A DNA stretch of 64,000 nt from Apteryx mantelli (taxonomy: Eukaryota > Chordata > Aves > Apterygiformes > Apterygidae), in assembly GCF_036417845.1 (NCBI RefSeq), contig NC_090016.1, forward strand, positions 434,001-498,000. The letters are read 5' to 3'. Under the pieces are notes generated by a model. The model ran no database searches, was not told the origin of the DNA, and saw nothing but the letters and a program-made list of their open reading frames with translations. The translations under genes and the position numbers were made by a program. Shown one piece after another: positions 1 to 33,126 of this stretch; the first letter of the stretch is position 1; every line of letters begins with the position of its first letter.

Positions 1-75
1 CTGGCGACGTACTCGAGCCTCTTCCCGGGCGCTTGCCGGAACCAGAGCATGCCGAAGTTGCTGAAGGTGCAGCAA
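1..75 (-). pseudogene. VH-like segment V0, fragment cut by the window edge
   Basis: Read on the minus strand, this encodes the end of FR1, CDR1 and FR2 ([20 protein letters not shown]). The rest of FR1 is missing toward position 80 and the 3' part lies outside the window. It shows that the array continues to the left. Confidence 0.75.
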
Positions 76-135
76 TACTCACTGTTGCGGGGAGAAACCC
101 TGGAGCTGGGAACGGAGGGGTTGGGCTGTGGCCAG

Positions 136-480
136 GGCTGCGGGCGGACGTGCAGCTGAGCGAGGCCAGAGGGGGCCTCCAGCCGCCCGGTGGGAGCCTC
201 CGCCTCTCCTGCAAGGGAACCGGCTACACCTTCAGCAGCTTCGACATGAGCTGGGTCCGGCAAGCACCTGGGAAGGGGCTCGAAGGTGTAGCAGGTATTT
301 ACAGCGATGGTAGTGATACAGACTACGGGTCTGCAGTGCAAGGGCGCTTCACCATCTCCAAGGACAACGCCCAGAGCACGATCTACCTGCAGATGAACAG
401 CCTCAAGACCGACGACACCGCCACCTACTACTGCGCGAAACGAGCTGATAGTAGTGGTGCTGGTGGTGGAGACTCAGTTG
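136..480 (+). pseudogene. VH-like segment V1 with fused D-like end
   Basis: A V exon starting just after a CCAG acceptor ([16 protein letters not shown]), with FR1 cysteine, [11 protein letters not shown] in FR2, KGRFT-type FR3 (here [14 protein letters not shown]) and YYCAK. It continues in frame into [14 protein letters not shown] with no heptamer or nonamer. No leader exon or octamer was found upstream; only an altered piece of intron remains. The exon is open throughout. It is most likely a gene-conversion donor of IGHV type; VH-delta is the alternative. Confidence 0.8.
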
Positions 481-569
481 GCCAATACCATTACTCAGCC
501 ACTCTCAATCATCTTGGACAGCTCATGGCCATGAGCACTCGTGGGTGCATCCCATCAGGGCCCGGGCCA

Positions 570-911
570 CCACAGGCTCCCCATCACCGCCACTCCCATA
601 ACCATCTTTCGCGCAGTAGTAGGTGGCGGTGTCGTCGGTCTTGAGGCTGTTCATCTGCAGGTAGAGCGTGCTCTGCGCGTTGTCCTTGGAGATGGTGAAG
701 CGCCCTTGCACCGCATCCGCGTAGTCTGTACCACTACCAGTGCTTCTAATACTCGCAACCCACTCGAGCCTCTTTCCAGGTGCCTGTCGGATCCAGTACA
801 TGTTGAAGCTGCTGAAGGTGAATCCGGTTCCCTTGCAGGAGAGGCGGAGGCTCCCGCCGGGTGGCTGGAGGCCCCCTCCAGACTCGCTCAGCCGCACGAC
901 CTCCCGCAGCC
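570..911 (-). pseudogene. VH-like segment V2 with fused D-like end
   Basis: A minus-strand V exon with conserved acceptor remnant at 912-913. It reads [16 protein letters not shown], then a [17 protein letters not shown]2 and [18 protein letters not shown], with no RSS. It is tail-to-tail with V1, about 90 bp away. About 35 bp of the leader intron 3' end survives on its 5' side, but there is no leader. Confidence 0.8.
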
Positions 912-1039
912 CTGGGGAGAGGGGAGAGAAGAGCAGAGGAGATGAGCAGGGTGGCGGTGGCGGCAGCTGGAGTGGCTCGACACGGGGCCGGCCCCAGTGG
1001 CAGCTGGGCACTCGGACCCGAGCAGATGCCCTATGCCAC

Positions 1040-1346
1040 TGACGCCAGAGTCTATTGGATCTGCGTCTCCTTCAAGGGGAACAGATTCACCTTCAGCAGC
1101 TTCGGCAAGTTATGGTTCTGGCAAGTGCCTGGGAAGGGGCTCGAGTACATCACGGGTATTGAAAGCGGTGGTGGTTATACAGAATACGCGGATGCGGTGA
1201 AAGGGCGCTTCACCGTCTCCAGGGACAACGCCCAGAGCACGCTCTACCTGCAGATGAACAGCCTCAAGACCGACGACACCACCACCTACTACTGCGCGAG
1301 AGCAGCTAGTGGTTATGGTGGTGCTCGTGGTGCAGATCCTCTTTGA
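1040..1346 (+). pseudogene. VH-like segment V3, 5'-truncated in FR1
   Basis: Begins abruptly at [18 protein letters not shown], so the first two-thirds of FR1, the intron and the leader are missing. FR2 is abnormal ([13 protein letters not shown]). FR3 is standard and ends [19 protein letters not shown] followed by a stop. Head-to-head with V2. Confidence 0.8.
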
Positions 1347-1505
1347 GGCCAGGCAAAATCCTCATCAAGTGATTCCCCCTGCAAGGCATGAGGCAGCAGT
1401 GCCTGCAAGAGCACAGCACCACTATCGTCCACTGGAGACCCAAAGGCAGCGATTCCAGCCCCAAAAGAGGCGGCGGCGCCAGGAGTCCCTTATGAGCGGA
1501 GCTGC
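1347..1505. other. Spacer between V3 and the V4 promoter
   Basis: About 160 bp conserved in front of all four promoter-bearing V segments. The first ~85 bp, read on the minus strand, resemble the stretch at 14,370-14,455 at the end of a CR1 fragment, so it may be a CR1-linked remnant. Confidence 0.4.
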
Positions 1506-1513
1506 ATGCAAAT
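1506..1513 (+). promoter_or_regulatory. Ig-type octamer ATGCAAAT of V4
   Basis: Perfect octamer 90 bp before the V4 leader ATG, the usual place for the Oct-binding element of Ig V promoters. No canonical TATA box is visible between the octamer and the ATG. Confidence 0.8.
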
Positions 1514-1602
1514 CCCGGCTGCACGGTGCCTTCAAATGCTGCCAGCCCCGCCGTGCTGCCACCACCGCTCCCAGCACCCACCGCCCCTCCCGCCCCGCCA
1601 CC

Positions 1603-2175
1603 ATGAGCCCTCGGCTCCGCGGCCTCGTCCTCCTCCTCCTCGCGGCCCTGCCAGGTAGGGCCCCTTCCCCCGCCGGCACCCGCCATCCCCGGGGGGCTCC
1701 CCCCGGCCGCGGGCACCTCCGCTCGGGTCCGGGCGCCCGGCCACCCCCGGGACCGGCCCCGAGTCGGGCCACTCCGGCTGCCGACTGCCACCCCGCTCAT
1801 CTCCTCTGCTCTTCTCTCGCCTCTCCCCAGGGCTGCGGGCGGACGTGCAGCTGAGCGAGGCTGGAGGGGGCCTCCAGCTGCCCGGCGGGAGCCTCCGCCT
1901 CTCCTGCAAGGCCTCCGGATTCGACTTCAGCAACTTCGGCATGGAATGGGTCCGGCAGGCACCCGGGAAGGGACTTGAGTGGGTCGCGGGTATTACCAGC
2001 AGTGGTAGTGCGTACTACGTGGATGCGGTGAAAGGGCGCTTCACAGCCTCCAGGGACAACGCCCAGAGCACACTCTACCTGCAGATGAACAGCCTCAAGA
2101 CCGACGACACCGCCACCTACTACTGTGCGAAAGGTGCTGGTGCTTATGGTTGGAGTGGTGGAGCCCCTTTTTTGA
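1603..2175 (+). pseudogene. VH-like gene V4: promoter, leader, intron and V exon, but fused D and no RSS
   Basis: The leader exon at 1603-1654 encodes MSPRLRGLVLLLLAALP plus one base and is followed by GTAGGG. The 176-bp intron ends CTCTCCCCAG, and the V exon starts at 1831 ([20 protein letters not shown]). All V landmarks are intact: [40 protein letters not shown]. The exon runs on into [13 protein letters not shown] and stays open to 2189. No RSS heptamer or nonamer follows, so it cannot rearrange by the normal route, although transcription and splicing elements are present. Most likely a complete but RSS-less donor gene. Confidence 0.85.
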
Positions 2176-2261
2176 GGCCTGGGCCCTGATGGGATGCACC
2201 CACGAGTGCTCATGGCCATGAGCTGTCCAAGATGACTCAGAGTGGCTGAGCAATGACATCG

Positions 2262-2608
2262 GCCAACAGGATCTTCATCACCTCCACCAGCAGTAGCAGC
2301 ATCTTTCGCGCAGTAATAGGTGGTGGTGTCGTCGGTCTTGAGGCTGTTCATCTGCAGGTAGAGCGTGCTCTGGGCATCGTCCCTGGAGGCTGTGAAGCGC
2401 CCTTTCACTGCAGATGTGTACCATGGATTGCTGCCATCACTCCAAATACTGGCAATGTATTCGAGACCCTTCCTGGGTGCCTGTCGGATCCAGAACATGC
2501 TAAAGCTGCTGAAGGTGAATCCGGTTCCCTTGCAGGAGAGGCGGAAGATTCCACTGGGGGGCTGGAGGCCCCCTCCGGCCTCGCTCAGCTGCACGTCCGC
2601 CCGCAGCC
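2262..2608 (-). pseudogene. VH-like segment V5 with fused D-like end
   Basis: Minus-strand V exon ([20 protein letters not shown]), FR2 [15 protein letters not shown], long CDR2 ([11 protein letters not shown]), [19 protein letters not shown]. Open, no leader, no RSS. Tail-to-tail with V4 across a spacer of about 90 bp. The leader-intron 3' end is retained at 2609-2645. Confidence 0.8.
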
Positions 2609-2739
2609 CTGGGGAGAGGCGAGAGAAGAGCAGAGGAGATGAGTGGGGTGGCGGTGGCGGTGGCCAGAGTGGCCTGACATGGGGCCGGCCCCGGGGCTGG
2701 CCGGGCACCCAGAGCCAAGTGGACGCCCTGTGCAACTGA

Positions 2740-3035
2740 TGCCAGAGTCTGCTGGATCTGCGTCTCCTGCAAGGGAACAGGATTCACCTTCAGCAGCTTC
2801 AGCATGAGCTGGATCTGGCAAGCGCTCAGGAAGGGGTTCACGTTCATCGCGAAAATTGACAGCACTGGTAGTACATACTACGCGGATGTGGTAAAAGGGC
2901 GCTTCACCATCTCCAGGGACAACGCCCAGAGCACGCTCTACCTGCAGATGAACAGCCTCAAGACCGACGACACCGCCACCTACTACTGCACGAAACGAGC
3001 TGATAGTAGTGGTGCTGGTGGTGGAGACTCAGTTG
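2740..3035 (+). pseudogene. VH-like segment V6, 5'-truncated in FR1
   Basis: Starts in late FR1 ([18 protein letters not shown]), with FR2 degraded to [17 protein letters not shown]3 is intact to YYCTK, followed by [14 protein letters not shown]. Head-to-head with V5. Same FR1 breakpoint as V3 and V8. Confidence 0.8.
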
Positions 3036-3123
3036 GCCAATACCATTACTCAGCCACTCTCAATCATCTTGGACAGCTCATGGCCATGAGCACTCGTGGG
3101 TGCATCCCATCAGGGCCTGGACC

Positions 3124-3467
3124 TCAAACAGGGTCTCCACCACTCCAACCATAAGCACCAGCAGCTTTCGCGCAGTAGTAGGTGGCGGTGTCGTCGGTCT
3201 TGAGGCTGTTCATCTGCAAGGAGAGCGTGCTCTGGCCGTCATCCCTGGAGATGGTGAAGCGCCCTTTCACCGCATCCGCGTAGCCTGTACTACCACCGCT
3301 GTTAATAACTGCGACCCACTCAAACCCCTTCCCAGGCGCCTGCCGGACCCATTCCATGTAGAAGCTGCTGAAGGTGAATCCGGAGGCCTTGCAGGAGAGG
3401 CGGAGGCTCCCGCCGGGCGGCTGGAGGCCCCCTCCGGCCTCAATCAGCTGCACGTCCGCCCGCAGCC
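3124..3467 (-). pseudogene. VH-like segment V7 (unit 1)
   Basis: Open minus-strand V exon: [34 protein letters not shown]2 [12 protein letters not shown]3 with the unusual [11 protein letters not shown], then [18 protein letters not shown]. No leader and no RSS. Confidence 0.82.
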
Positions 3468-3549
3468 CTGGGGAGAGGCGAGAGAAGAGCAGAGGAGATG
3501 AGTGGGCGGCAGTGGCCAGAGCCAAGTGGAGGCCCTGGGCTGCTGGTGC

Positions 3550-3845
3550 TGGAGTCTGTTGGAGTTGTGTCTCCTGCAAGGGAACCAGATTCACCTTCAG
3601 CAGCTCCTACATGTACTGGATCCAATAGGCACCCGGGAAGGGGGTCGAAGCTGTCGCACTTATTAGCAGCACTGGTAGTAGTACATGGTACCTGAATGCG
3701 GTGAAAGGGCGCTTCACCATCTCCAGGGACGACGCCCAGAGCACGCTCTACCTGCAGATGAACAGCCTCAAGACCGACGACACCGCCACCTACTACTGCG
3801 CGAAAACAGATAGTAGTGGTGCTGGTGGTGGAGACCCAGTTGGCC
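3550..3845 (+). pseudogene. VH-like segment V8 (unit 1), in-frame stop
   Basis: 5'-truncated in FR1 ([20 protein letters not shown]). FR2 has a TAG at 3628-3630 where the partner copy in unit 3 has CGG (R). FR3 is normal, ending [18 protein letters not shown]. No RSS. Confidence 0.82.
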
Positions 3846-3924
3846 AATACCATTACTCAGCCACTCTCAATCATCTTGGACAGCTCATGGCCATGAGCAC
3901 TCGTGGGTGCATCCCATCAGGGCC

Positions 3925-4277
3925 TGGACCTCAAACAGGGTCTCCACCACTCCAACCATAAGCACCAGCACCTTTCGTGCAGTAGTAGGTGGCAGTGTCG
4001 TCGGTCTTGAGGCTGTTCATCTGCAGGTAGAGCGTGCTCTGGGCATCGTCCCTGGAGATGGTGAAGCGCCCTTTCACCGCATCTGGGTACCATGGACTAC
4101 TACCACCAGGGTTAATAACAGCGACGAACTCGAGCCCCTTCCCAGGTGCTTGCCGGATCCAGAACATCCAGTGGCTGCTGAAGGTGAATCCGGAGGCCTT
4201 GCAGGAGAGGCGGAAGCTTCCACTGGGGGGCTGGAGGCCCCCTCCGGCCTCGATCAGCTGCACGTCTGCCCGCAGCC
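3925..4277 (-). pseudogene. VH-like segment V9 (unit 1)
   Basis: Open minus-strand exon with [20 protein letters not shown]1 HWMF, CDR2 [11 protein letters not shown] and [18 protein letters not shown]. The sequence 5' of the exon (4278-4330) is unrelated to the leader intron of the other copies, so this copy was truncated right at the acceptor. Confidence 0.82.
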
Positions 4278-4338
4278 CTGGCCACAGACAAACCCCTCCA
4301 TGCCCAACTCCATGGTTTCCCCCCTGATGGGGATCATT

Positions 4339-4571
4339 GCTGCACCTACAGCAGCTTCACCATGATCTGGATCCTACAAGCGCCTGGGAAGGGGCTCGAA
4401 TACATCGCATATATTAGCAGCAGTGGTGGTACAGGCTACGCAGATGCAGTGAAAGGGCGCTTCACCATCTCCAGGGACGACGCCCAGAGCACGCTCTACC
4501 TGCAGATGAACAGCCTCAAGACCGACGACACCGCCACCTACTACTGCGCCAAAAGTTCTAATAACTGTTGA
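4339..4571 (+). pseudogene. VH-like segment V10 (unit 1), 5'-truncated at CDR1
   Basis: Begins at the TYSSFTMIW equivalent of CDR1, so FR1 is absent. FR2 and FR3 are normal. The D-like part is short ([10 protein letters not shown]) and is followed by a TGA. The same V end followed by a CR1 fragment occurs inverted at V32. Confidence 0.8.
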
Positions 4572-4621
4572 GGTAGAGACGGCGTTGTGGCCAGAGCCCT
4601 GATCAGATCGACCCACCAGTG

Positions 4622-4832
4622 CTGAGGGGGCTGACTGACGCCATTACTACATTGCTCTCCATCAGCCTTGCAAGGTCATGGCCATCAGGAGAGGTGACCG
4701 AGACCCGGAAGGAAGCAAAGGTCCCTCCAGGCTTCCAAAAGGGCAGGGAGGAAGAGTCGGGGACCTCCAGGACAGTCAGCCTCACCTGCGCCCCTGCACA
4801 GGTGGTGGAGCAGCTCATCCTGGACATCATCT
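4622..4832 (+). mobile_element. CR1 LINE fragment a (reverse transcriptase part)
   Basis: The + frame reads [20 protein letters not shown], then [18 protein letters not shown], matching the CR1 RT region usually spelled with VTPVFKKGRK and GKVMEQIILD. Both CR1 ends are missing. It abuts V11 inside FR3. Confidence 0.8.
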
Positions 4833-5069
4833 GGGAGTTGTCCCTGGAGATGGTGAAGCGCCCTTTCACTGCAGACCCGTAGTATGTGCTACTACCACTG
4901 CTGCTAATAAGAGCGACAGCTTCGAGCCCCTTCCCAGGTGCCTGTCGAATCCAGTACATGTGGGAGCTGCTGAAGGTGAATCCGGAGGCCTTGCAGGAGA
5001 GGCGGAGGCTCCCGCCGGGCGGCTGGAGGCCCCCTCCGGCCTCGCTCAGCTGCACGTCCGCCCGCAGCC
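4833..5069 (-). pseudogene. VH-like segment V11 (unit 1), cut in FR3 at a CR1 junction
   Basis: Minus-strand V exon from [16 protein letters not shown] to [10 protein letters not shown], where it passes directly into CR1 fragment a. The rest of FR3 and the D part are lost. Confidence 0.8.
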
Positions 5070-5199
5070 CTGGGGAGAGGCGAGAGAAAAGCAAAGGAGT
5101 TGAGTGGGATGGCGGTGGCGGAAACTGGAGTGGCCCGGCATGGGGCTGGCCCCGGGGGCAGCCAGGCACTCAGACCTGAGTGGAGGTCCTGTGCCACTG

Positions 5200-5505
5200 A
5201 TGCCAGAGTCTATTGGATCTGCATTTCCTGCAAGGGAATCAGCTACACCTTCGGCAACATCCACATGCAATGGGTCCGACAAGCACCCTGGAAGGGGGCT
5301 CAAGCTCGTCGCGAGTATTTATGGCAGTGGTAGTTATACAGAATACGCGGATGCGGTGAAAGGGCGCTTCACCGTCTCCAGGGACAACGCCCAGAGCACG
5401 CTCTACCTGCAGATGAACAGCCTCAAGACCGACGACACCGCCACCTACTACTGCGCGAGAGCAGCTAGTGGTTATGGTGGTGCTCGTGGTGCAGATCCTC
5501 TTTGA
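5200..5505 (+). pseudogene. VH-like segment V12 (unit 1), frameshifted in FR2
   Basis: 5'-truncated FR1 ([20 protein letters not shown]), FR2 WVRQAPWKG. An extra base around 5290-5300 moves the frame, after which [20 protein letters not shown] and [19 protein letters not shown] continue in another frame. It leads into the conserved spacer before V13. Confidence 0.8.
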
Positions 5506-5664
5506 GGCCAGGCAAAATCCTCATCAAGTGATTCCCCCTGCAAGGCATGAGGCAGCAGTGCCTGCAAGAGCACAGCACCACTATCGTCCACTGGAGACCC
5601 AAAGGCAGCGATTCCAGCCCCAAAAGAGGCGGCGGCGCCAGGAGTCCCTTATGAGCGGAGCTGC

Positions 5665-5672
5665 ATGCAAAT
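5665..5672 (+). promoter_or_regulatory. Ig-type octamer ATGCAAAT of V13
   Basis: Perfect octamer 90 bp before the leader ATG at 5762, as in V4. Confidence 0.8.
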
Positions 5673-5761
5673 CCCGGCTGCACGGTGCCTTCAAATGCCG
5701 CCAGCTCCGCCGTGCTGCCACCACCGCTCCCGGCACCCACCGCCCCTCCCGCCCCGCCACC

Positions 5762-6335
5762 ATGAGCCCTCGGCTCCGCGGCCTCGTCCTCCTCCTCCTC
5801 GCGGCCCTGCCAGGTAGGGCCCCTTCCCCCGCCGGCACCCGCCATCCCCGGGGGGCTCCCCCCGGCCGCGGGCACCTCCGCTCGGGTCCGGGCGCCCGGC
5901 CACCCCCGGGACCGGCCCCGAGTCGGGCCACTCCGGCTGCCGACTGCCACCCCGCTCATCTCCTCTGCTCTTCTCTCGCCTCTCCCCAGGGCTGCGGGCG
6001 GACGTGCAGCTGAGCGAGGCTGGAGGGGGCCTCCAGCTGCCCGGCGGGAGCCTCCGCCTCTCCTGCAAGGCCTCCGGATTCGACTTCAGCAACTTCGGCA
6101 TGGAATGGGTCCGGCAGGCGCCCGGGAAGGGACTTGAGTGGGTCGCGGGTATTACCAGCAGTGGTAGTGCGTACTACGCGGATGCGGTGCAAGGGCGCTT
6201 CACAGCCTCCAGGGACAACGCCCAGAGCACGCTCTACCTGCAGATGAACAGCCTCAAGACCGACGACACCGCCACCTACTACTGCGCGAAACGAGCTGAT
6301 AGTAGTGGTGCTGGTGGTGGAGACTCAGTTGGCCA
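5762..6335 (+). pseudogene. VH-like gene V13: leader, intron and V exon, no RSS
   Basis: Leader 5762-5813 is identical in protein sequence to that of V4, with intron 5814-5989 and V exon from 5990. The V part nearly matches V4, but after YYCAK it carries [14 protein letters not shown] instead of [13 protein letters not shown], so the 3' part has been exchanged. No RSS follows. Confidence 0.85.
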
Positions 6336-6419
6336 ATACCATTACTCAGCCACTCTCAATCATCTTGGACAGCTCATGGCCATGAGCACTCGTGGGTGCA
6401 TCCCATCAGGGCCTGGACC

Positions 6420-6763
6420 TCAAACAGGGTCTCCACCACTCCAACCATAAGCACCAGCAGCTTTCGCGCAGTAGTAGGTGGCGGTGTCGTCGGTCTTGAG
6501 GCTGTTCATCTGCAAGGAGAGCGTGCTCTGGCCGTCATCCCTGGAGATGGTGAAGCGCCCTTTCACCGCATCCGCGTAGCCTGTACTACCACCGCTGTTA
6601 ATAACTGCGACCCACTCAAACCCCTTCCCAGGCGCCTGCCGGACCCATTCCATGTAGAAGCTGCTGAAGGTGAATCCGGAGGCCTTGCAGGAGAGGCGGA
6701 GGCTCCCGCCGGGCGGCTGGAGGCCCCCTCCGGCCTCAATCAGCTGCACGTCCGCCCGCAGCC
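6420..6763 (-). pseudogene. VH-like segment V14 (unit 2 copy of V7)
   Basis: Same protein as V7, ending [18 protein letters not shown]; open, no leader, no RSS. Confidence 0.82.
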
Positions 6764-6845
6764 CTGGGGAGAGGCGAGAGAAGAGCAGAGGAGATGAGTG
6801 GGCGGCAGTGGCCAGAGCCAAGTGGAGGCCCTGGGCTGCTGGTGC

Positions 6846-7141
6846 TGGAGTCTGTTGGAGTTGTGTCTCCTGCAAGGGAACCAGATTCACCTTCAGCAGC
6901 TCCTACATGTACTGGATCCAATAGGCACCCGGGAAGGGGGTCGAAGCTGTCGCACTTATTAGCAGCACTGGTAGTAGTACATGGTACCTGAATGCGGTGA
7001 AAGGGCGCTTCACCATCTCCAGGGACGACGCCCAGAGCACGCTCTACCTGCAGATGAACAGCCTCAAGACCGACGACACCGCCACCTACTACTGCGCGAA
7101 AACAGATAGTAGTGGTGCTGGTGGTGGAGACCCAGTTGGCC
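6846..7141 (+). pseudogene. VH-like segment V15 (unit 2 copy of V8), in-frame stop
   Basis: Same as V8, including the TAG in FR2 (6924-6926), so the stop is older than the unit 1/unit 2 duplication. Confidence 0.82.
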
Positions 7142-7220
7142 AATACCATTACTCAGCCACTCTCAATCATCTTGGACAGCTCATGGCCATGAGCACTCGT
7201 GGGTGCATCCCATCAGGGCC

Positions 7221-7573
7221 TGGACCTCAAACAGGGTCTCCACCACTCCAACCATAAGCACCAGCACCTTTCGTGCAGTAGTAGGTGGCAGTGTCGTCGG
7301 TCTTGAGGCTGTTCATCTGCAGGTAGAGCGTGCTCTGGGCATCGTCCCTGGAGATGGTGAAGCGCCCTTTCACCGCATCTGGGTACCATGGACTACTACC
7401 ACCAGGGTTAATAACAGCGACGAACTCGAGCCCCTTCCCAGGTGCTTGCCGGATCCAGAACATCCAGTGGCTGCTGAAGGTGAATCCGGAGGCCTTGCAG
7501 GAGAGGCGGAAGCTTCCACTGGGGGGCTGGAGGCCCCCTCCGGCCTCGATCAGCTGCACGTCTGCCCGCAGCC
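7221..7573 (-). pseudogene. VH-like segment V16 (unit 2 copy of V9)
   Basis: Same protein as V9 ([18 protein letters not shown]), with the same non-intronic 5' flank. Confidence 0.82.
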
Positions 7574-7634
7574 CTGGCCACAGACAAACCCCTCCATGCC
7601 CAACTCCATGGTTTCCCCCCTGATGGGGATCATT

Positions 7635-7867
7635 GCTGCACCTACAGCAGCTTCACCATGATCTGGATCCTACAAGCGCCTGGGAAGGGGCTCGAATACA
7701 TCGCATATATTAGCAGCAGTGGTGGTACAGGCTACGCAGATGCAGTGAAAGGGCGCTTCACCATCTCCAGGGACGACGCCCAGAGCACGCTCTACCTGCA
7801 GATGAACAGCCTCAAGACCGACGACACCGCCACCTACTACTGCGCCAAAAGTTCTAATAACTGTTGA
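7635..7867 (+). pseudogene. VH-like segment V17 (unit 2 copy of V10)
   Basis: Truncated at CDR1, ends [10 protein letters not shown] then TGA, as in V10. Confidence 0.8.
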
Positions 7868-7917
7868 GGTAGAGACGGCGTTGTGGCCAGAGCCCTGATC
7901 AGATCGACCCACCAGTG

Positions 7918-8128
7918 CTGAGGGGGCTGACTGACGCCATTACTACATTGCTCTCCATCAGCCTTGCAAGGTCATGGCCATCAGGAGAGGTGACCGAGAC
8001 CCGGAAGGAAGCAAAGGTCCCTCCAGGCTTCCAAAAGGGCAGGGAGGAAGAGTCGGGGACCTCCAGGACAGTCAGCCTCACCTGCGCCCCTGCACAGGTG
8101 GTGGAGCAGCTCATCCTGGACATCATCT
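7918..8128 (+). mobile_element. CR1 LINE fragment b (unit 2)
   Basis: Copy of CR1 fragment a with the same ends, so it duplicated with the unit and does not represent a new insertion. Confidence 0.8.
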
Positions 8129-8365
8129 GGGAGTTGTCCCTGGAGATGGTGAAGCGCCCTTTCACTGCAGACCCGTAGTATGTGCTACTACCACTGCTGC
8201 TAATAAGAGCGACAGCTTCGAGCCCCTTCCCAGGTGCCTGTCGAATCCAGTACATGTGGGAGCTGCTGAAGGTGAATCCGGAGGCCTTGCAGGAGAGGCG
8301 GAGGCTCCCGCCGGGCGGCTGGAGGCCCCCTCCGGCCTCGCTCAGCTGCACGTCCGCCCGCAGCC
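8129..8365 (-). pseudogene. VH-like segment V18 (unit 2 copy of V11)
   Basis: Same FR3/CR1 junction as V11. Confidence 0.8.
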
Positions 8366-8495
8366 CTGGGGAGAGGCGAGAGAAAAGCAAAGGAGTTGAG
8401 TGGGATGGCGGTGGCGGAAACTGGAGTGGCCCGGCATGGGGCTGGCCCCGGGGGCAGCCAGGCACTCAGACCTGAGTGGAGGTCCTGTGCCACTG

Positions 8496-8801
8496 ATGCC
8501 AGAGTCTATTGGATCTGCATTTCCTGCAAGGGAATCAGCTACACCTTCGGCAACATCCACATGCAATGGGTCCGACAAGCACCCTGGAAGGGGGCTCAAG
8601 CTCGTCACGAGTATTTATGGCAGTGGTAGTTATACAGAATACGCGGATGCGGTGAAAGGGCGCTTCACCGTCTCCAGGGACAACGCCCAGAGCACGCTCT
8701 ACCTGCAGATGAACAGCCTCAAGACCGACGACACCGCCACCTACTACTGCGCGAGAGCAGCTAGTGGTTATGGTGGTGCTCGTGGTGCAGATCCTCTTTG
8801 A
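8496..8801 (+). pseudogene. VH-like segment V19 (unit 2 copy of V12), frameshifted
   Basis: Same FR1 truncation and FR2 frameshift as V12; one base differs in FR2/CDR2 (LVTSIYG instead of LVASIYG). Ends [19 protein letters not shown]. Confidence 0.8.
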
Positions 8802-8960
8802 GGCCAGGCAAAATCCTCATCAAGTGATTCCCCCTGCAAGGCATGAGGCAGCAGTGCCTGCAAGAGCACAGCACCACTATCGTCCACTGGAGACCCAAAG
8901 GCAGCGATTCCAGCCCCAAAAGAGGCGGCGGCGCCAGGAGTCCCTTATGAGCGGAGCTGC

Positions 8961-8968
8961 ATGCAAAT
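8961..8968 (+). promoter_or_regulatory. Ig-type octamer ATGCAAAT of V20
   Basis: Perfect octamer 90 bp before the leader ATG at 9058. Confidence 0.8.
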
Positions 8969-9057
8969 CCCGGCTGCACGGTGCCTTCAAATGCCGCCAG
9001 CTCCGCCGTGCTGCCACCACCGCTCCCGGCACCCACCGCCCCTCCCGCCCCGCCACC

Positions 9058-9631: not shown

Positions 9632-9715
9632 ATACCATTACTCAGCCACTCTCAATCATCTTGGACAGCTCATGGCCATGAGCACTCGTGGGTGCATCCC
9701 ATCAGGGCCTGGACC

Positions 9716-10059: not shown

Positions 10060-10141
10060 CTGGGGAGAGGCGAGAGAAGAGCAGAGGAGATGAGTGGGCG
10101 GCAGTGGCCAGAGCCAAGTGGAGGCCCTGGGCTGCTGGTGC

Positions 10142-10437: not shown

Positions 10438-10514
10438 AATACCATTACTCAGCCACTCTCAATCATCTTGGACAGCTCATGGTCATGAGCACTCGTGGGT
10501 GCATCCCATCAGGG

Positions 10515-13800: not shown

Positions 13801-13814
13801 GGGCCCTGATGCAA

Positions 13815-22577: not shown

Positions 22578-22615
<38 letters not shown>

Positions 22616-23640: not shown

Positions 23641-23884
23641 TCCTGGGCAACCTGCTCCAGGCTTTATCTGCAGCTGCCGTGAGCCATCTTCAGCGCTGGT
23701 TCTCCCATTTGCCCCAAATCTGCCCTTTTCGCCCCCCAGAAGCCCCCGTCCCGGGTTGTAGGGCCAGGATCCCTGGTGGCTCACAGTTATCTCCTCCGAG
23801 TATCTAAATAGAAGATGAGAAAACCTCCTTCACCACCTAGCAGGTGCCTAGGAGACGTCAGCCTCATTGCATCCTACCGGGGCC

Positions 23885-24130
23885 TGCAGCACACGTATTT
23901 ATATATATTTATATATATATATATATGTATATACACACAGTATCACATTGCATTTATTTTTGCATCCAGGCAGGATTGCATTGCAAGTATTTTTTGCATC
24001 GATACAGGATTGCATTTTAATTTATTTATGTATCTCTACAAGATTATATTGCATTTAGGTTTGTATCTATACAAGGTCGCATTGCAATATGTCTTTGTAT
24101 ATCTCTACAGGATTGCATTGCATTTCTGTT
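23885..24130 (+). repeat. TA microsatellite followed by ~40-bp TTGCATTT repeat
   Basis: After a (TA)n run at 23,897-23,935, a degenerate unit of about 40 bp (ATTGCATTTxxxTTTGTATCTATACAGGATTGC sense) repeats about five times to 24,130. Confidence 0.65.
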
Positions 24131-24309
24131 TACATATATGTGCGTGTGCATGTCTATACGTGTCAAACCATACGTTGGCGTTTGCAGCACAGAAACCCGG
24201 CCCGAAATGGGATGCGCTACGGCTGCTTGTTTGGGTTTTTTTGCCCGAAAGCCCAAATTTGGCGGCGTTTGCTGCCCCCTCCTGGTTATCGCATCTCGCC
24301 TGGGGCTTC

Positions 24310-24860
24310 GGGGGGCGCTGGGCCATACTGGGACTTACTGGTGGGCCCCCAGTTCCCCCCAGGCCCTACAACAGGGTTGGTCTGGGCAGACTGGGGGGCA
24401 CTGGGCCATACTGGGAGGCACTGGGGGTCCAGACTAGGGCCACTGGGCCATACTGGGGGGCACTGGGCCGTACTGGGCGGCACCAGCTGCCCTGCCTAGA
24501 GGCACTGGGACATACTGGGGGCACTGGGACATACTGGGGGCACTGGGCCATAATGGGGGGCACTGGGGGTCCAGACTAGGGCCACTGGGCCATACTGGGG
24601 GGCATTGGGCCGTACTGGGCGGCACCAGTTGCCCTGCCTAGAGGCCCTGGGCCATACTGGGGGCCCTGGGCCATAATGGGGGGCACTGGGGGTCCAGACT
24701 AGGGCCACTGGGCTATACTGGGGGGCACTGGGCCATAACGGGGGGGCACCAGCTGCCCTGCCTAGAGGCACTGGGACATACTGGGGGGCACTGGGACATA
24801 CTGGGCAGCACTAGCTACCCTGCCTAGAGGCACTGGGACATACTGGCGGCACAAGGCGCC
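24310..24860 (+). repeat. ACTGGG minisatellite with higher-order structure
   Basis: The core GGGCACTGGGCCATACTGGG repeats about 20 times. A longer unit of about 110 bp that includes GGGGTCCAGACTAGGGCCAC and CAGCTGCCCTGCCTAGAGGC recurs three to four times. The strong reading frames on both strands arise only from the repeat. Confidence 0.85.
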
Positions 24861-24879
24861 CCCCCCCCGGCCTCGCTGC

Positions 24880-25760
24880 TCCTCCGCCGTCGCCCCGGGC
24901 CGGCCACGCCGCCCGGAAATGGGCGGAGCCCAGGTGGTTACAAGGCGGAAGGGGGCGTGGCCTGGGGCGGGTCTATGAATGGGACCGGACCCGCCGCTGA
25001 TACCGGCCATTGTGACGTCGATGGGAACAGGTAGGGGCATGCTAATGAGGCGGGGGCGCCGTGCAAAGGTGGCGGCGGGGGGGCCCGTGCTCTCTGTCGC
25101 GATACCGCGGGCTCTATTACGATAACAGCGCTTATACCCATGGGGTGGTGGCGTTGGCGCGTTGCGGGGAGGGGGGCGCGCTGTCGCGGTATCGGCGCTG
25201 TCACGATAGCCCCGCACCGAGAGCGCGTAACAGGCTAGCGGGTGGGTAAGCTCGCTTTTTAATCTGCCTAGCAACGCCCGCCGCCTCGGCGCTGATTGGC
25301 TCGGAGGAGGCCGGGGGGCGTGGCGGCGCTCAGCACTGAGCGCATGCGCCGCTGGAGAGGGCTTCCCCCCCTCCCGCTCGGCTTGCGTGCATGAGGTTGG
25401 GTGAGCGCGCTTGCGCACGGACGCTGGGGGGGGGGCGGTGTCCCGGAAGTGCTCCTTTCCCTAGCAACCGCGGGGTGTCCCTTAGCAACCTGTGTGGTCT
25501 GGCCTCCCGCGGCGGGGCCTGGTGGCCCGGGGGGGGCCCCGGGGGTGACTGCGGCCTCTCTGCGTCCCCCCCTTGGGGTCCCTAAGGGGGGGGACACGAG
25601 GTCCCTGTGTCCCCCCGGCAGCCGTGGGTTTTTTTCCCTAGCAACCGTGGGTTTTTCCCTAGCAACCATAGGCCTCTTCCCCCCCCTCCCGCCCCCCAGC
25701 AAGGCCCATGCAGCCATGGAGGCCCCAGAGCAGCCCCAGGTCCCTCCTCGTTACCTCCCC
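24880..25760. promoter_or_regulatory. CpG-rich block, possible promoter of unknown direction
   Basis: Dense CpG after the minisatellite. It includes near-repeats GTCGCGATACCGCGG (25,097) and GTCGCGGTATCGGCG (25,182), and five CTAGCAAC or TTAGCAAC elements (about 25,268, 25,462, 25,483, 25,638, 25,660) that fit RFX half-sites. No attached exon could be recognised. It might serve SALL2 or an unannotated transcript. Confidence 0.45.
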
Positions 25761-27337
25761 CCCCCCACGGGGCCCGCGTCTGGCGGGGGGTGAGGGAGGG
25801 CCTAGGCGTCCGGGGGGGCCCAGGCATCCGGCTCCCCCCCCCCCACGACCCCCTCGGCAGGCGCCATCTCTCGCAGCTGGAGCAGCAGCTCCCGCTCTGC
25901 CAGGGAACAGAAAAAACACAACAAATTTGAAGAAAAAAAGTGGGAAAAAACGGGGGAAAAAAAGTGGGAAAACAACCCCAATATTTGCTTTTTCCTGCCT
26001 CAGAGCGCAGCCAGATGCCTCCCGCTGACTCTGCTGCCCCGGCCTGCCCCCACTATTTATTTTCCTTGTGGCAAAGGGACTAAAAACACCTGATTATCCC
26101 TTTTTTTTCCCGCCCCTTTTCCACCCACCACGACAAGGGTGGCAACCCCACTTCATTTTTTCCTAAAAACGGGCTTTTTCCAGCTCTTCTGCTGGGTGGC
26201 AGAAGCAGGAGGGGGCAAATTCCCCCCCCAACCACCCTGTTCCTGGAGGGGCACAAAAACCCTTTAAATATGCATTTTGGGGGGGCTCTTCTTACCTATT
26301 CCCCACTTTTTTCGCATTTATTTCTGCCTGTCACAGGGATTGGGGGGCGGCAGCTCAGAAATGTGAAATTTGCCCCGTTTTGGAGCCGCCTTTGCACCGC
26401 GCCATTGCCTGCTTGTGCAGGCACTTGCTGCTGGGCAATAAATTGATTTTTTAATTTTTTTTTTTGCTTTTTTCTCACTTTTTTCTTACTTTTTCCCCAG
26501 GAGGCTGGCAGACGGCTGCAGAGCTGTTTTGCAGGACGGAGGCGGCCGGCGCGACGCCCCCCTTCCCCCCGCCGGCGGCCTCGGCGAAAAGCTCTGCTTT
26601 CCTCCTTTTTTTTTCTCTCTTTTTTTTGTTTTTAATGCTTTTTGTGTTTTTTTTTTTTTTTCCCCCCACATTGTGCCCGGTCCTCATTAGCATTCGCCCC
26701 GCGCCGGCCTGCTTTTGTGCCGCGCCGGGGAGGTTGGGAGGCCGCCGAGGCACTGGGGTCCCCTTTCGGGGGGGAATAAACCAAGGAAATTCTCCTCTTT
26801 AAGAATATATCTATATTTTTTTGCATTGCAAAAAAAAAAAAAAAAGGCATTTGCACCCCCTCCCTGAAAAAAAAGCCTCCTGGCGCAAAAGCGATTTGCA
26901 AAATAAGTCCCCAAAAATAGTTAAAAAAAAAACAACTTGTATCAGGTGTGGGCACAGCAGGTTGCTTCTATTTATTTATTTATTTCCCCTTTTTTGCACC
27001 TAAAATGCAACAGGTTAGGTTGCACTTTTTTTTGTTTTGGGGGGGGTTTTGCTTTTGCTTTTTTTTTTTGCACCAAAATGCTCAAGTTTTGCCCCAGCGC
27101 AGGGTGTTCCCCCCCCCCCCAACCCCCCAAGCCGGGCGGGAAGGGGTTAAAGGCTTTTTGCCCACCCTGAGTGTGCACAAAAGAGGAGCAAAAAAAAAGA
27201 AAGTGCAGCAAGATTAGGACTTTTTTTTTCTTTTTTTGAGGGGAAAAAAGAAAAATAAAAGGGGGGGAAGTGCGCCACCGCCGGACGGACGGACGCGGGG
27301 GGGAACGGGGGGGACAGGGGCGTCCCCCCGTGCGGGG
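25761..27337. other. SALL2 upstream region, homopolymer-rich
   Basis: Many runs of T, A, C and G; pyrimidine-rich at 26,440-26,690. The composition turns GC-rich again close to SALL2 exon 1. No other gene is visible. Confidence 0.5.
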
Positions 27338-30300
27338 ATGCCGCGCCGCAAGCAGCGCCGGCCGCAGCAGCTCGTCTCCCTGGCCGCCGAGCACGGTGGG
27401 TGCCCCCCCTCGAGGAAGAGGAGGGGGAGGATGAAGGGGCAATTGGGAGGGGGAAACTTGCAGGATTTGGGGGGGGGCGGGGGTTGCACTGTTTTTTTCC
27501 CCATCTTAACTTTTGCAAAGGCGGCGTTTCCCCCCCTGCCCCCCCCCGGCCCGGGGGTGGGTTGTGAACTTCGCGGTGCCCCCCTTTGCTGGGGGGGGGG
27601 GGGTTCCCCTGTTTTGACCCAAAACCGACCGCCCTCCCCAGGGCAAAGTGGCCCCCCCTCAGGGAGAGGGGCCCTGCCCCGGTGCAGTATCTGCGTGCAA
27701 TGCTTGCATGCAGGATTTGTGCGCAGTATCCATGTGCAACGCTTGCATGCAGCACCTGTGTGCAATGCTTGTGTGCAATATCTGCATACGACGCTTGCAT
27801 ACAGGATCTGTGCGCAATATCTGTGCGCAATATCCTCGTGCAACGCTTGCATGCAGCATTCATGCGCAATATCTGCGTGACTCTTGCATGCAGCGCCTGC
27901 ATGCAATGCTTGCGTGCAATGTCTGCGTGCAAAAGTCACATGCAGTGTCTGCGTGCACTGGTGGCGTATGATATCTGCGTGCAACGCTTGTGTGCAGCGT
28001 CTGCGTGTGGTGCTTGCGTGCAGTATCCACCTGCAATATCCACATGCAACGCTTGCACGCAGCATCTACGCACAGCGCTTGCGTGCAACATCTGTGAGCA
28101 GCGCCTGCACGCAGTATCCGTGCATTGCGCTCACGTGCAGCATCCACCCTCGCACACGGGGGGGGGGGCAGACGTGGCTTTTCGGGCCCCCTCTGCCCCC
28201 GCTCCTTGGCCTTTCTCCCCGGCCCCCTTGCGCCGCAGCCTTGGTTTCGCCCCCCCTTTGCATCGCGGCTCGGTGTCTTTGTAGCCGTGCACCCCGAAGG
28301 GATCACTTTGTGCATCACGGCTTGGGGACCCCCCCATTGTATTAAGACTTGGGGTCCCCCCCACAATTGCATCATAGCACAGGGACCCCCCCCATTGTAT
28401 TAAGACTTGGGGTCCTCCCCCAATTGCATCACACCTTAGGGACCCCCCCTCGATTGCATCACAGCCCGGGGACCCCCCCCTCAATTGCATCATCGCACAG
28501 GGACCCCCCCATTGCATCATCGCACAGGGACCCCCCCCTTGATTACATCATAGTCTGGGACCCCCCCCCGATTGCATCATGGCTCGGGGACGCCCCCCCC
28601 CCCATCCCCTCCGGACACCAGAGGTCCCTGCAGCCGCCGCATCCGCCCGCGTCTCCTCCTCTTCCTCCTCTTCCTCCTGGAGCCGCCACCGCGGGACCGG
28701 CCATGGCCGAGCTGGGAGGTGCGGGACCCCCCCACCCTGGACGGACAGACGGACACCGCCCCCCCCTTTCCTGGGGGCTCCTCCGTCCGTCTGTCTATCC
28801 TTCGGGTCCCTCCATCCCCGCGTCCGTCCTGCCCTCTGGCTCCGGGTCCCTGCATCCGTCCTCCATGTCCCTGCATCCATCCGGCCCTGCCTGCGTCTGT
28901 CTGTCCTTCCCTCCATCCCTCTGTCCGTTCTTCCCTCTGGCTCCAGGTCTCCCCGTCCATCCATCCAACCCCACTGGCATCCCATCCGCACGTCTGTCTG
29001 TCCTTCCCTCCATCCCTGCGTCCGTCCTTCCGGCTCCAGGTCTCTCCGTCCATCCGGCCCTGCCTGCATCCGTCCCTCCATCCCCATGTCCGTCCATCTG
29101 TCCTTCCCTCCATCCCTGTGTCTGTCCTTCCGTCTCCGGGTCTCTCCGTTCACCTGGCCGTGTCTGCATCCATCCCTCCATCCCCACTTCCCTCCGTCCT
29201 TCCCTCCATCTGCAGGTGTCCATCCATCCTTCCCTCTGTCTCTGGGTCTCCCCATCCATCTGTCCATCCCTGCCAGCATCCCGTCCCTGCGTCTGTCCGT
29301 CCTTCCCTCCATCTCCAGGTGTCTCCATCCATCTGGCCCTGCCTGCATCCGTCCCTCCGTCCCCGCCTCTGTCCGTCCTTCCCTCCATCCCTGTGTCCCT
29401 CTGTTCTTCCCTCCATCTCCGGGTCTCCCCATCCATCCGTCCATCCCCACCAGCATCCCGTCCCCGCATCCGTCTGTCCTTCCCTCCATCTCCAGGTCTC
29501 TCCATCCGACCATGTCTGCATCTGTCCCTCTGACCCCACGTCCATCCGTCCTTCCCTCCATCCCTGGGTCTCTCCATCCATCCGACCCTGCCTGCATCTG
29601 TCCCTCTGACCCCACATCCATCCGTCCTTCCCTCCATCTCCGGGTCTCTCCATCCATCCAGCCGTGTCTGCATCCGTTCCTCCATCCCTGCCTCCATCCG
29701 TCCTTCCCTCCGGATCTCCCCATCCATCCGTCCATCCCCAAGGCTCATCCATCCATCCGTCCATCTGGGCGGGAGGGAAACCCCCCCCTTGATTTCTGAG
29801 CACGGGGAGCAGATTTTGGGGCCGGACAGCAGCTGATTTGGCCAATTCTCACCCCACAGGCTCCCCGGCTGCCGCTGCCGCTGCTCCTTCCTCCTCCTCG
29901 GAGCCACCGGGGATGGATGCGGAGCCGCCGCTGCCGCCGCCGCTGCCGGCGCTGGACATCCCGCTGCTGCTGGAGGAGCTGCGGGTGCTGCAGCAGCGGC
30001 AGCTCCACCAGCTGCAGCTCACGGAGGAGATCTGCCGCCAGGTGCTGCTGCTGGGCGCCCCGGCGGCCCCCAAAACTGCCGCCCCCGCCCTCTTCGCCGC
30101 CCCCAAAGCCGAACCGCCCCGGACCCCTGCATCTGGGCTGCCCCCCAAGCCCGCCTTCTTCCACCTCTACCGCCCTTGGGGGGCCAAAGCCGAGGTGGTG
30201 CCACCACCAACAGTGGTGGGACCGGCGGTGGTGGGACCGGCGGTGGTGGGACCAGCGGTGGTGGGCCGGGAGGTCTCTCTGCGGCCCCGCAACGAGGCGG

Positions 30301-32524
30301 AGGAGAAGCCCGGCGGTGGCGGGCGGCACCGCTGCCGCTTCTGCGCCAAGGCCTTCGGCAGCGACAGCGCCCTGCAGATCCACCTGCGCTCGCACACCGG
30401 CGAGCGGCCCTACAAGTGCAACGTCTGCGGCAACCGCTTCACCACCCGCGGCAACCTGAAGGTCCACTTCCACCGCCACCGCGACCGCTACCCCCACGTC
30501 CAGATGAACCCCCACCCCGTGCCCGAGCACCTCGACTACCTGCTGGCTGCCCGCCCCGGTGCCCCGCCGGAGAAGAGCGACGCCGCCGAGAAGCCACCGC
30601 TGAAGGTGCCGGTGGCCGCGGAGGGCCTCCCACTGCTGCCTCAGCCCTTGCCCGGCTTCAACAAGCTGGTGCTGCTGAAGGCAGCAGAGGAGAAGGCCAA
30701 GGGGGATGAAAACACCCCACCGGGCAAGCTGCCTGCCTGGGCCTTGCTGGCCAACCACTTCAAGGGCGGCCACCACCACCACCACCACCACCACCACCAC
30801 CACCACGCCGCCGCCGCTGCCGCATTCCCCTTCCTCCTGGAGCCGCTGGCGGCGGCCCCCTCCGAGACCTCCAAGCTGCAGCAGCTGGTGGAGAAGATCG
30901 ACCCGCCGGGGACCACCAGCACTGCGGCGGTGGTGGTGGCCACCACCGAGGCGCCGGGGATGGTGGTGGCCGCCGCCGCCGCGCCGCCGTCCTCCTCCGC
31001 CCCCAACCAGTGCCCCGTGTGCCAGCGGGTGCTGAGCTGCCCCCGGGCGCTGCGGCTGCACGCGGGGCAGCACGCTGGGGCCGAGCGCCCCTTCCGCTGC
31101 AAGGCGTGCGGCCGGGCCTTCTCCACCCGCGGCAACCTGCGGGCCCACTCGGCCGCCCACCGAGCCGGCCCGGCGGCCACCGCCGCCGCCACCCGGCCCC
31201 GAAACTCCTGCCCCATCTGCCAGAAGACGTTCGCTGACGCCCTGGGCCTCCAGCACCACGTCCGCCTCCACCTGGGCGGCCAGATCCCCAACGGCGGCCC
31301 GGTGCCAGCCCGCCGGCCCGAGGAGCTCTCCGAGGACGAGGAGGACGAGGACGAGGAGGAGGACGAGGAGGAGGACGCCTCCGAGGAGGACGAGTCCGCC
31401 GAGAGCGGCCCCGAGAAGCCCCCTGCCGAGGAGGAGGAGGACGACGACGATGAGGAGCAGGAGGAGGAGGAGGAAGGTGAAGGTTGCCGCCGGGCGGGCA
31501 GCCCCGCGCCGGCCTCAGAGGGAGCCAGCAAGCCCACGGCGGAGGAAGGAGGCGCGTGCGGAGGGGAGGAGGCCCCGGAGGAGCCGCGGGCCAGCCCAGC
31601 CAAGGAGGGTGCTCCCGACGGGGCCATGGCCAGGAAGGCTGGGCAGGTAAGGACGGTCCCGGTCCCTCCATAGGGATGCTCATGGTCCCTCCGTAGGGAT
31701 GCTCATGGTCTGTAGGGATGCTTATGGTCCATAAGGACACTTGTGGTCCGTAGGGACACTCTTGGGCCCTCCATAGGAATGCTCATGGTCCATATGGATG
31801 CTCGTGGTACCTCCATAGGGATACTCGTGGTCCATCCATAGGGACACTCATGGTCCATAAGGATGCTTCCGGTCCATAGGGAGGCTCCTGGTCCCTCCGT
31901 AGGGATGCTGGCTGTCCCTAAGGATGCTCCTGGTCCATAGGGATGTTCATGGTCCCTCTATAGGGGTACTTGTGGTCCATAGGGACCCTCTCGATCCATA
32001 GGGATGCTGGTGGTCCATAGGGACACTCGTTGTCCCTCCATAGGGATGCTGGTGGTCCATAGGGACACTCCTGGTCTATAGGGACACTCGTGGTCCCTCC
32101 ATAGCGATGCTGGTGGTCCCTATGGATGCTCCTGGCCCATAGGGATGCTCCCGGTCTGTAGGGAAGCTGCCAGCACCCCCCACCTCTCCCTTGCACCCTT
32201 CTCTCCCCGCAGGTGCCCTCGTGCTGGAGCTGCAGCCCGGCGCCCCGCACCCATCCGCCCACCCCGGACGTCCCTCCACCACCACCACCACCACCACCAC
32301 CGCCACCACCACCACCGCCGCCGCCACCACCAACGACGACGACGACGAGCCGTGGGGCTGGCAAACCGCCGGACTTCCCGGCCCGTCCGCCACCGCCGCC
32401 GCCGCCGCTCTCCTTCTGGAGCCAGTACAGCGCCTTCGTGGCAGCCGGCGCCAAGGCGGCCCGCCCCCGCCCAACGCCCACCGAGGCCCCCGCGCCCCCA
32501 GCGCCCGGCCCCGCCGACAAGTAG
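27338..32524 (+). CDS. SALL2: SALL2, spalt-like C2H2 zinc-finger transcription factor
   Basis: Nuclear zinc-finger transcription factor of the spalt family. Coding exons: 27338-27395 ([15 protein letters not shown], the NuRD-recruiting N-terminal motif), 29860-31646, and probably 32213-32524. Phases agree (1, 0) and the product is about 718 residues versus about 1,000 in human. Exon 2 has the Q-rich family helix ([20 protein letters not shown]), FFHLYRP, a finger pair at about residues 177-230 ([12 protein letters not shown]..., [12 protein letters not shown]...), [15 protein letters not shown], then three fingers at about 404-490 (CPVCQ, CKACG, CPICQ) and an acidic tail. The N-terminal CxxC finger and the C-terminal finger pair of mammalian SALL2 are not found. 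There is a run of about 14 His near 30,770. The last exon is Pro-rich and less certain. ATTAAA occurs at 32,652. Confidence 0.85.
27680..28140 (+). repeat. Minisatellite of TGCATGCA/GCGTGCA units
   Basis: About 450 bp of degenerate 17-18-bp units (CTGCGTGCAATGCTTGCA, CTGTGCGCAATATC and similar), often in pairs of about 36 bp. It gives Cys/His/Ala/Thr-rich frames on both strands that are artefacts. Confidence 0.85.
28300..28600 (+). repeat. Minisatellite GGGACCCCCCC-ATTGCATCA
   Basis: About eight units of 30-40 bp, each with a C-run after GGGGA followed by ATTGCATCATxGCxC. C-runs vary from 6 to 10. Confidence 0.8.
28702..28717 (+). CDS. SALL2: Possible alternative first coding exon of SALL2 (E1A type)
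   Basis: ATG GCC GAG CTG GGA G followed by GTGCGG: a 16-nt coding end (MAELG) in phase 1, the same phase as exon 1 at 27338, so it would splice correctly to exon 2. Mammalian SALL2 has two alternative first exons, and the longer one ends in an AELGG-like sequence. Short, so only moderately supported. Confidence 0.4.
28785..29760 (+). repeat. Long CCATCC/TTCCCTCCATC minisatellite
   Basis: Nearly 1 kb of units such as CCGTCCTTCCCTCCATC and CTCCGGGTCTCTCCATC, with a higher-order period near 110-120 bp. Strongly pyrimidine-biased. Open frames of about 400 codons run through it on both strands and are not genes. Confidence 0.9.
31660..32160 (+). repeat. Minisatellite in SALL2 intron 2 (CCATAGGGATGCT)
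   Basis: About 500 bp of units like GGTCCATAGGGACACTCGT and GGTCCCTCCATAGGGATGCT. It lies between the exon 2 donor (31,646) and the proposed last exon, where mammalian SALL2 would still encode the final finger pair. Confidence 0.85.
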
Positions 32525-32651
32525 TCCTTTTAACGCCTTTTAGTGCCCTTTTTCCGCTTTAGTTTTAGCACAGCGGGCCCCCCTCCTCCATGGCACCCTC
32601 ATTCCTCCTCCCTATAGCATAGCGCCAGCCTCTGCCCCCCCCTCCGCCTCC

Positions 32652-32657
32652 ATTAAA
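32652..32657 (+). terminator. Poly(A) signal ATTAAA of SALL2
   Basis: ATTAAA about 128 bp after the proposed stop at 32524, which supports the last SALL2 exon. Confidence 0.55.
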
Positions 32658-32779
32658 GCCGTTTTGGTGACTCCCCCGCCGCGACTCGTCTCTGCTTTTT
32701 GCTGGGGGAAGGAAATAAGAGGGAGGCGACACCATTTTGGGGGAGGTTTTTGGGGGTCCCGCACACCGCTGCGGCGCTG

Positions 32780-33126
32780 CCAGTCCGCAAGATGGCGGCC
32801 CGGCCCTCAACAAAGATGGCGGCGCGGTGACGTCGCCCGTTGCTGGGGAACCCCCTTCCCGCCGCTAAGATGGCCGCCGCGCCAGCAGCCAACATGGCGC
32901 GCGCGGCCTCGGGGTGAGGGCAGGGGCGCGTTGCTAGGACACCGCCACTTCCCCCCTCCCTTCCGCCACTAAGAGGGCCGTCGCGCCAGCAGCCAACATG
33001 GGGCGCGCGGCTTCGCGCTGAGGGCGGGGCGGGGCGCGGCCGGGCGGGCGCGGCTACTCCCCGCTTCCGGTTCGGCGGCGGCGGAGCGGGGCCGGGGGCG
33101 GCGGGGCCGGCGAGGCTGGGGTCGCG
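32780..33126 (+). promoter_or_regulatory. METTL3 promoter with repeated AAGATGGCGGC (YY1-type) sites and CRE
   Basis: CpG-rich. AAGATGGCGGC at 32,789 and 32,814 and AAGATGGCCGC at 32,867 fit YY1. TGACGTC at 32,828 fits a CRE. A ~105-bp segment containing GCGCCAGCAGCCAACATGG is duplicated (32,860-32,930 and 32,965-33,035). Confidence 0.65.

Follow-up and report, generated by a model that had tools for sequence, protein, structure and literature searches.

The stretch of Apteryx mantelli DNA considered here, a window of 64,000 nucleotides containing no N (positions 434001-498000 of the 647-kb contig NC_090016.1, hereafter C40), holds a dense array of heavy-chain-type variable (VH) segments and, to the right of it, the genes SALL2, METTL3, TOX4, RAB2B, CHD8 and SUPT16H (Table 1). 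A local tblastn search with the protein of the V gene IGHV1 against C40:234001-498000 gave 59 pieces, which after merging correspond to 55 VH segments (28 on the plus and 27 on the minus strand), all within C40:422,723-451,788. Inside or overlapping the window are 37 of these (20 plus, 17 minus), the array continuing for 11.3 kb beyond the left edge up to C40:422,723, the site of IGHV1. By a consensus scan, VH framework-3 ends were found on both strands and were confined to 0.4-17.6 kb of the window. An earlier note on this DNA had placed a VH array at positions 1 to 33,000; a dense array is indeed present, but it ends at 17,788 and is followed by non-V DNA up to the first SALL2 exon at 27,338.

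Recombination signal sequences with a 23-base spacer (23-RSS) were sought with two thresholds, one strict and one loose, the latter being reached by 2.6% of 5,500 random 80-base pieces of the array region. At both thresholds alike such a signal was observed at a single one of the 55 segments, IGHV1 (heptamer CACGGTG, 23-base spacer, GCAAAAACC), and this is also the sole 23-RSS on the minus strand of C40:384-424 kb at the threshold used. Of the 55 segments, 49 extend to the V end, the site at which an RSS would be anticipated, and the other six are truncated. Within the window none of the 37 segments has a 23-RSS even at the loose threshold, and since three of them are truncated before the V end, the test is meaningful for 34. 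A separate loose RSS scan of the window gave matches at 20-62 kb only, none of them adjoining a V.

The claim of the earlier note that the pool is V-D fused holds for most copies: among the 48 RSS-less ones extending to the V end, 43 carry a D-like tail, defined as at least five of about 16 triplets being GGT, GCT, TAT, AGT, GAT, TGT, GTT or ACT in one frame, a measure on which IGHV1 itself scores four. With respect to the query, 26 of the 55 segments are full-length, and 23 of these are distinct at the DNA level. Their variation is concentrated in the complementarity-determining regions (CDRs) 2 and 1, with bounds set by motif: over all 26 rows the mean column entropy is 1.45 bits in CDR2, 0.84 in CDR1 and 0.94 in the tail, as compared to 0.29, 0.60 and 0.38 in the framework regions FR1, FR2 and FR3, respectively. 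When only the 22 distinct protein rows are taken and the frameshifted copy is excluded, the corresponding values are 1.35, 0.81 and 0.98 for CDR2, CDR1 and tail and 0.29, 0.49 and 0.26 for FR1 to FR3.

An octamer together with a leader is kept in six of the 55 segments, four of them in the window, where each of four exact octamers ATGCAAAT lies 5' of a leader-bearing VH copy. Window positions 2,757-9,620 and 6,053-12,920 are 98.1% identical, part of the VH copy number being due to recent tandem duplication of a unit of about 3.3 kb. Two opposed reverse-transcriptase-like repeats are located inside the V array, at about 13,900-14,400 and 15,300-15,800 of the window, and similar frames are found at C40:426.9-427.3 kb and 430.0-430.8 kb; the repeat resembles CR1.

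The lack of an RSS in 54 of the 55 copies, the six truncations and the recent duplication might suggest a dead relic that has no donor role and is maintained by duplication alone. However, an in-frame stop is present in only two of the 26 full-length copies, one of which is the frameshifted one, and conserved frameworks combined with varied CDRs fit maintained donors. The same architecture is moreover described as active in chicken (PMC10917233), and a dead relic is considered very unlikely.

To the left of the window the same contig carries the other parts of an immunoglobulin heavy-chain (IGH) locus, and from its constant (C) genes through to the SALL2 side (C40:303,758-498,000) the sequence is unbroken by N. 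Extension to the left had been proposed in the earlier note for telling TRDC, TRAC or DAD1 from IGHD, IGHJ or IGHM; what it yields is a bird-type IGH locus on the minus strand, with DAD1 on another contig (C70) and TRDC not on C40. IGHV1 is the RSS-bearing V nearest to the D genes, of which two are predicted, both with RSS of the 12-base spacer type (12-RSS) on either side, and these are followed by one predicted J and by genes for mu, an inverted alpha and upsilon C regions, in line with an IGH locus of the chicken type, in which RSS-less donors with D-like tails in both orientations likewise lie upstream. Between J and IGHM there are AGCTGG-rich repeats which resemble immunoglobulin switch regions. 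A loose C-domain pattern scan returned mostly simple repeats, and use was made only of the clean rows from C40:374-377 kb. Three C1-type exons between IGHM and IGHA may represent an IGHD gene; in PDB the middle one (366657) has matches to several heavy chains, the best being UrIg2 and IgM, with IgD at an E value of 1.3e-12. In genome-wide searches, which covered 1.504 Gb in 408 contigs, the IGHM CH4 query gave 13 matches, eight on C40, three on C17 and two on C32. Those on C17 and C32 are weak, the former, at 30% identity, perhaps belonging to a light chain, and by this query heavy-chain C genes, with one IGHM CH4, were found on C40 alone.

Table 1. Features of the window and of the IGH locus to its left. 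Plain numbers are window positions; those preceded by C40 refer to the contig. The end of SALL2 and the ends of METTL3, TOX4 and RAB2B were read by eye, and the coordinates of CHD8 are those of exon-bearing frames.
Feature	Position	Strand	Remarks
IGHV pseudogene array (probable conversion donors)	1..17788, extending left to C40:422723 (about -11277)	both	tblastn, RSS test
VH copy	1833..2144	+	octamer ATGCAAAT at 1506, leader exon, no RSS
VH copy	5992..6297	+	octamer at 5665, leader exon, no RSS
VH copy	9288..9593	+	octamer at 8961, leader exon, no RSS
VH copy	12585..12899	+	octamer at 12258, leader exon, no RSS
Tandem duplication within array	2757..12920		unit about 3,296 bases
Non-V spacer, array to SALL2	17789..27337
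SALL2	27338..32524	+	first exons 27338 and 28703 (MAELGG), zinc-finger exon
METTL3	33127..37027	+	exon 35179-35418 matched; PDB match
TOX4	37277..40415	-	HMG box at 38525-38917
RAB2B	40956..43217	+	PDB match
CHD8 exon-bearing frames	48583..55997	+	SNF2 domain
SUPT16H exons, truncated by window end	62379..64000	+	PDB match
IGHV1	C40:422723-423037	-	octamer, leader, intron, V exon, 23-RSS
Predicted D	C40:419829-419808	-	12-RSS on both sides
Predicted D	C40:419645-419625	-	12-RSS on both sides
Predicted J	C40:384446	-	WGRGTAVTVSS; the one J found
AGCTGG-rich repeats	C40:377059-379581		between J and IGHM
IGHM exons	C40:376612, 376137, 375678, 374400	-	CH4: best PDB match Ig mu
C1-type exons, candidate IGHD	C40:368859, 366657, 366152	-	between IGHM and IGHA
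IGHA exons, inverted	between C40:358886 and 361525	+
IGHY1	C40:343750-339012	-	four C1 exons
IGHY2	C40:327418-322142	-	four C1 exons

The array is thus very probably the germline donor pool of an ordinary bird IGH locus which adjoins the SALL2 block and would use a scheme of RAG joining and conversion. A number of observations weigh against this interpretation. The heptamer of IGHV1, CACGGTG, deviates from the consensus, the one search pattern used yielded just two D, and the 23-RSS-like site of J is weak (heptamer CACCGTG, poor nonamer). Furthermore, 35 kb separate D from J; C40:401-419 kb, which lies between them, contains repeats (one with a spacing of 2.3 kb) and four RSS-like CACAACG matches, and these repeats may account for part of the distance. 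The CH4 of IGHY1 matches heavy chains in PDB generally, and two others outscore chicken IgY, which ranks third, so that PDB rank alone is insufficient for the label and the name also rests on gene order and exon number. Of the RSS-less copies, six of 54 are truncated, and five of the 48 reaching the V end have no D-like tail at the threshold used, these five constituting one family that ends in AGTTCTAATAACTGT. Finally, two reports from 2025 state that in birds METTL3 and SALL2 flank TRA/TRD, the T-cell receptor alpha/delta locus (PMC12698447; PMC12529555), an arrangement not seen on the SALL2-METTL3 side of this assembly.

The earlier note had offered two possibilities: that the array is a pool of IGH pseudogenes in linkage with the flank of TRA/TRD, or that it is a VH-delta pool from which a TRD locus is supplied through templated conversion. 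IGHV1, D, J, IGHM, IGHA and two IGHY genes on the contig of the array, together with a METTL3 exon found once in the genome, speak for the former. In favour of the latter, SALL2-METTL3 is the recorded flank of TRA/TRD in several vertebrates (PMC12529555; PMC12698447), and VH-delta genes exist in birds (PMC5278385; PMC10972964). However, the TRDC query had no match on C40, where the IGH genes are, and the three TRDC-like exons found in the genome are located on C28, at C7:2530746 (51%) and at C11:2968127 (47%). On C28, a plus-strand series of V genes (7,439,622-7,676,450) is accompanied by two short D bounded by RSS at either end, two TRD-type J, a TRDC exon at 7,705,716 and, within the terminal 10 kb of the contig, which ends at 7,760,717, 14 TRAJ-type J motifs. 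These TRDV-like genes are only 30-52% identical to the array query and therefore too distant for ongoing conversion with the array; the one examined closely carries a 23-RSS and has no octamer in the 10-kb stretch around it, whereas the octamer and leader kept in six array segments are of the IGHV type. A VH-delta donor pool is hence regarded as extremely unlikely. In contrast to the V genes of a TRA/TRD locus, which carry 23-RSS and are oriented towards the C gene, the 37 segments of the window lack an RSS and lie on mixed strands; nor was there on C40 any TRDC match, as a TRD2 locus would have beside an RSS-bearing VH-type V. A TRAV array was also considered; it is rejected in view of the mixed strands, the missing RSS, the octamers and the IGH C genes on the contig.

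Elsewhere in the genome the VH query gave at least 89 matches in total; all of those on C40 are in the array, and fewer were obtained on C12, C7, C17, C4 and C2. At C7:2.50-2.61 Mb, VH-like V places in three equal-score pairs, on both strands, surround the TRDC-like exon, and this region and C11:2968127 are candidate TRD2 (VH-delta) loci. At C12:2400207-2400542 there is an isolated VH-like exon with 47% identity to the array query, and no C exon was recognised in the 10 kb examined. The PF09291 (TRAC) profile had no match in this genome and none in 14 controls, and PF02096, used for OXA1L, had no match in this genome and matches in 11 of the 14 controls, all of them prokaryotes.

The order SALL2-METTL3-TOX4-RAB2B-CHD8-SUPT16H, already proposed in the earlier note, is supported by PDB matches, domains and strands, the names of SALL2 (with two alternative first exons and C2H2 fingers), TOX4 and CHD8 being based on the correct domains plus gene order. 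The strands (plus for all except TOX4, which is on the minus strand) mirror those in human 14q11.2. An exon of METTL3 used as query has a single match genome-wide, at this very place, and with the TRD/TRAJ cluster on C28 this means that in the assembly the SALL2-METTL3 side lies with IGH and not with TRA/TRD. The array may therefore fairly be said to sit where TRA/TRD V genes should be as far as position is concerned, but not with regard to function, the SALL2 side belonging to IGH here. On the far side, beyond IGHY2, exons of two myosin heavy-chain genes were found at C40:248-259 kb and 275-277 kb. The second gives 333-340 bits with Myosin-7/Myosin-6 and 304 bits with chicken skeletal myosin; seven further myosin places of 75-80% identity on C19 are presumably the skeletal cluster. 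MYH6 and MYH7 are in human 14q11.2, past TRA/TRD and DAD1 as seen from SALL2, so that human TRA/TRD is bracketed by cardiac myosin genes and SALL2. In Apteryx it is IGH that sits between cardiac myosin genes and SALL2, although the synteny is weaker on the myosin side, where two N runs (C40:281,892-281,953 and 303,558-303,757) separate the pair from IGHY2.

It might be argued that a misjoin in the assembly has placed a real IGHV pool beside SALL2 and that the linkage is false, as the array is repetitive, C40 is only 647 kb in size with N runs further left, and bird IGH loci are reported mostly on short contigs, probably on account of dot chromosomes (PMC13320880). Yet the N-free sequence from the C genes to SALL2, the single-copy METTL3 exon and the cardiac myosin pair on the opposite side of IGH, whose human counterparts lie in the same band as the SALL2 block, render a misjoin unlikely. 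In addition, a SALL2-METTL3-DAD1-ABHD4 block directly beside IgH is described for one newt haplotype (PMC12698447).

Of the known systems, chicken IGH is the closest in architecture. Its donors lack an RSS, reside upstream of the functional genes, are fused to IGHD-like pseudogenes and are used in gene conversion started by AID, with donor variation matching conversion hotspots mostly in the CDRs (PMC10917233). Here, too, one RSS-bearing V adjoins D, CDR-varied and mostly D-tailed copies are found upstream, and one J was detected. The 54 donors found compare with 120 heavy-chain pseudogenes used for chicken (PMC10917233), and while chicken has three isotypes (PMC5389807), IGHD-like exons and two IGHY genes are present here. 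In the latter respect Apteryx resembles ostrich and emu, for which IgD and two IgY genes are reported; these two species have two IGHM genes (PMC5389807), in contrast to the one IGHM CH4 found here. In the same source IgD is not reported for chicken, duck, penguin or zebra finch, and many other birds are stated to have retained one IGHY. Avian TRD2, a single V-D-J-C cassette on chicken chromosome 10 and in duck (PMC5278385; PMC10972964), shares the VH-type V, whereas the array has neither TRDC nor RSS.

As for position, IGH and TRA/D are linked in Xenopus (PMC12698447), and as in Xenopus and newt IGH is found near genes that elsewhere flank TRA/TRD. In Apteryx, however, IGH directly adjoins SALL2, while TRD/TRAJ and DAD1 each lie on a further contig (C28 and C70). 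The likely location of bird IGH on dot chromosomes (PMC13320880) and that of chicken TRA/TRD on chromosome 27 (PMC10972964) fit two separate contigs. No report of a bird IGH locus beside SALL2 or myosin genes was found in searches of open PMC main texts, among them papers on dot chromosomes and the chicken genome, which had no hit for these gene names, and PMC11754216.

In the scheme suggested by these data, the IGH locus would be transcribed leftward, and RAG would join IGHV1, a functional candidate and probably the expressed V, to a D (C40:419.6-419.8 kb) and to the single J detected (C40:384.4 kb). Conversion started by AID in B cells would then copy tracts of the 54 RSS-less V copies, mainly of CDR2, CDR1 and the V-D tail, into the rearranged V-D-J, a process for which the orientation of the donors would be irrelevant; such somatic conversion into IGHV1 is probable by analogy with chicken. 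The 3.3-kb tandem duplication would represent recent growth of the array. The SALL2 block, as the 5' neighbour of IGH, might be what is left of a former IGH-TRA/TRD neighbourhood, TRA/TRD (now on C28, DAD1 being on C70) having since been separated from it, and the linkage in Xenopus and the newt haplotype make an old neighbourhood of IGH and SALL2-block genes plausible. We see about even chances that in this bird lineage IGH holds the slot occupied by TRA/TRD in other tetrapods as the outcome of a split in an ancestral region shared by IGH and TRA/TRD, after which the TRA/TRD portion moved away. If true and general in birds, this would mean that the statement of SALL2 and METTL3 flanking bird TRA/TRD is wrong, and the split would become datable.

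What appeared to be a new T-cell receptor system therefore resolves into a bird IGH locus read without N from the constant genes to SALL2, which is useful because such loci otherwise tend to lie on short contigs, likely on dot chromosomes. The window comprises the greater part of the bird's store of broken antibody gene copies, which most likely serve as templates for varying its antibodies. The position of the locus makes it possible to test concretely in what way IGH and TRA/TRD, which are linked in Xenopus, became separated in birds, and it also bears on the place of a possible exchange of VH-delta genes; as it can be tested in other bird assemblies, this synteny is worth following.

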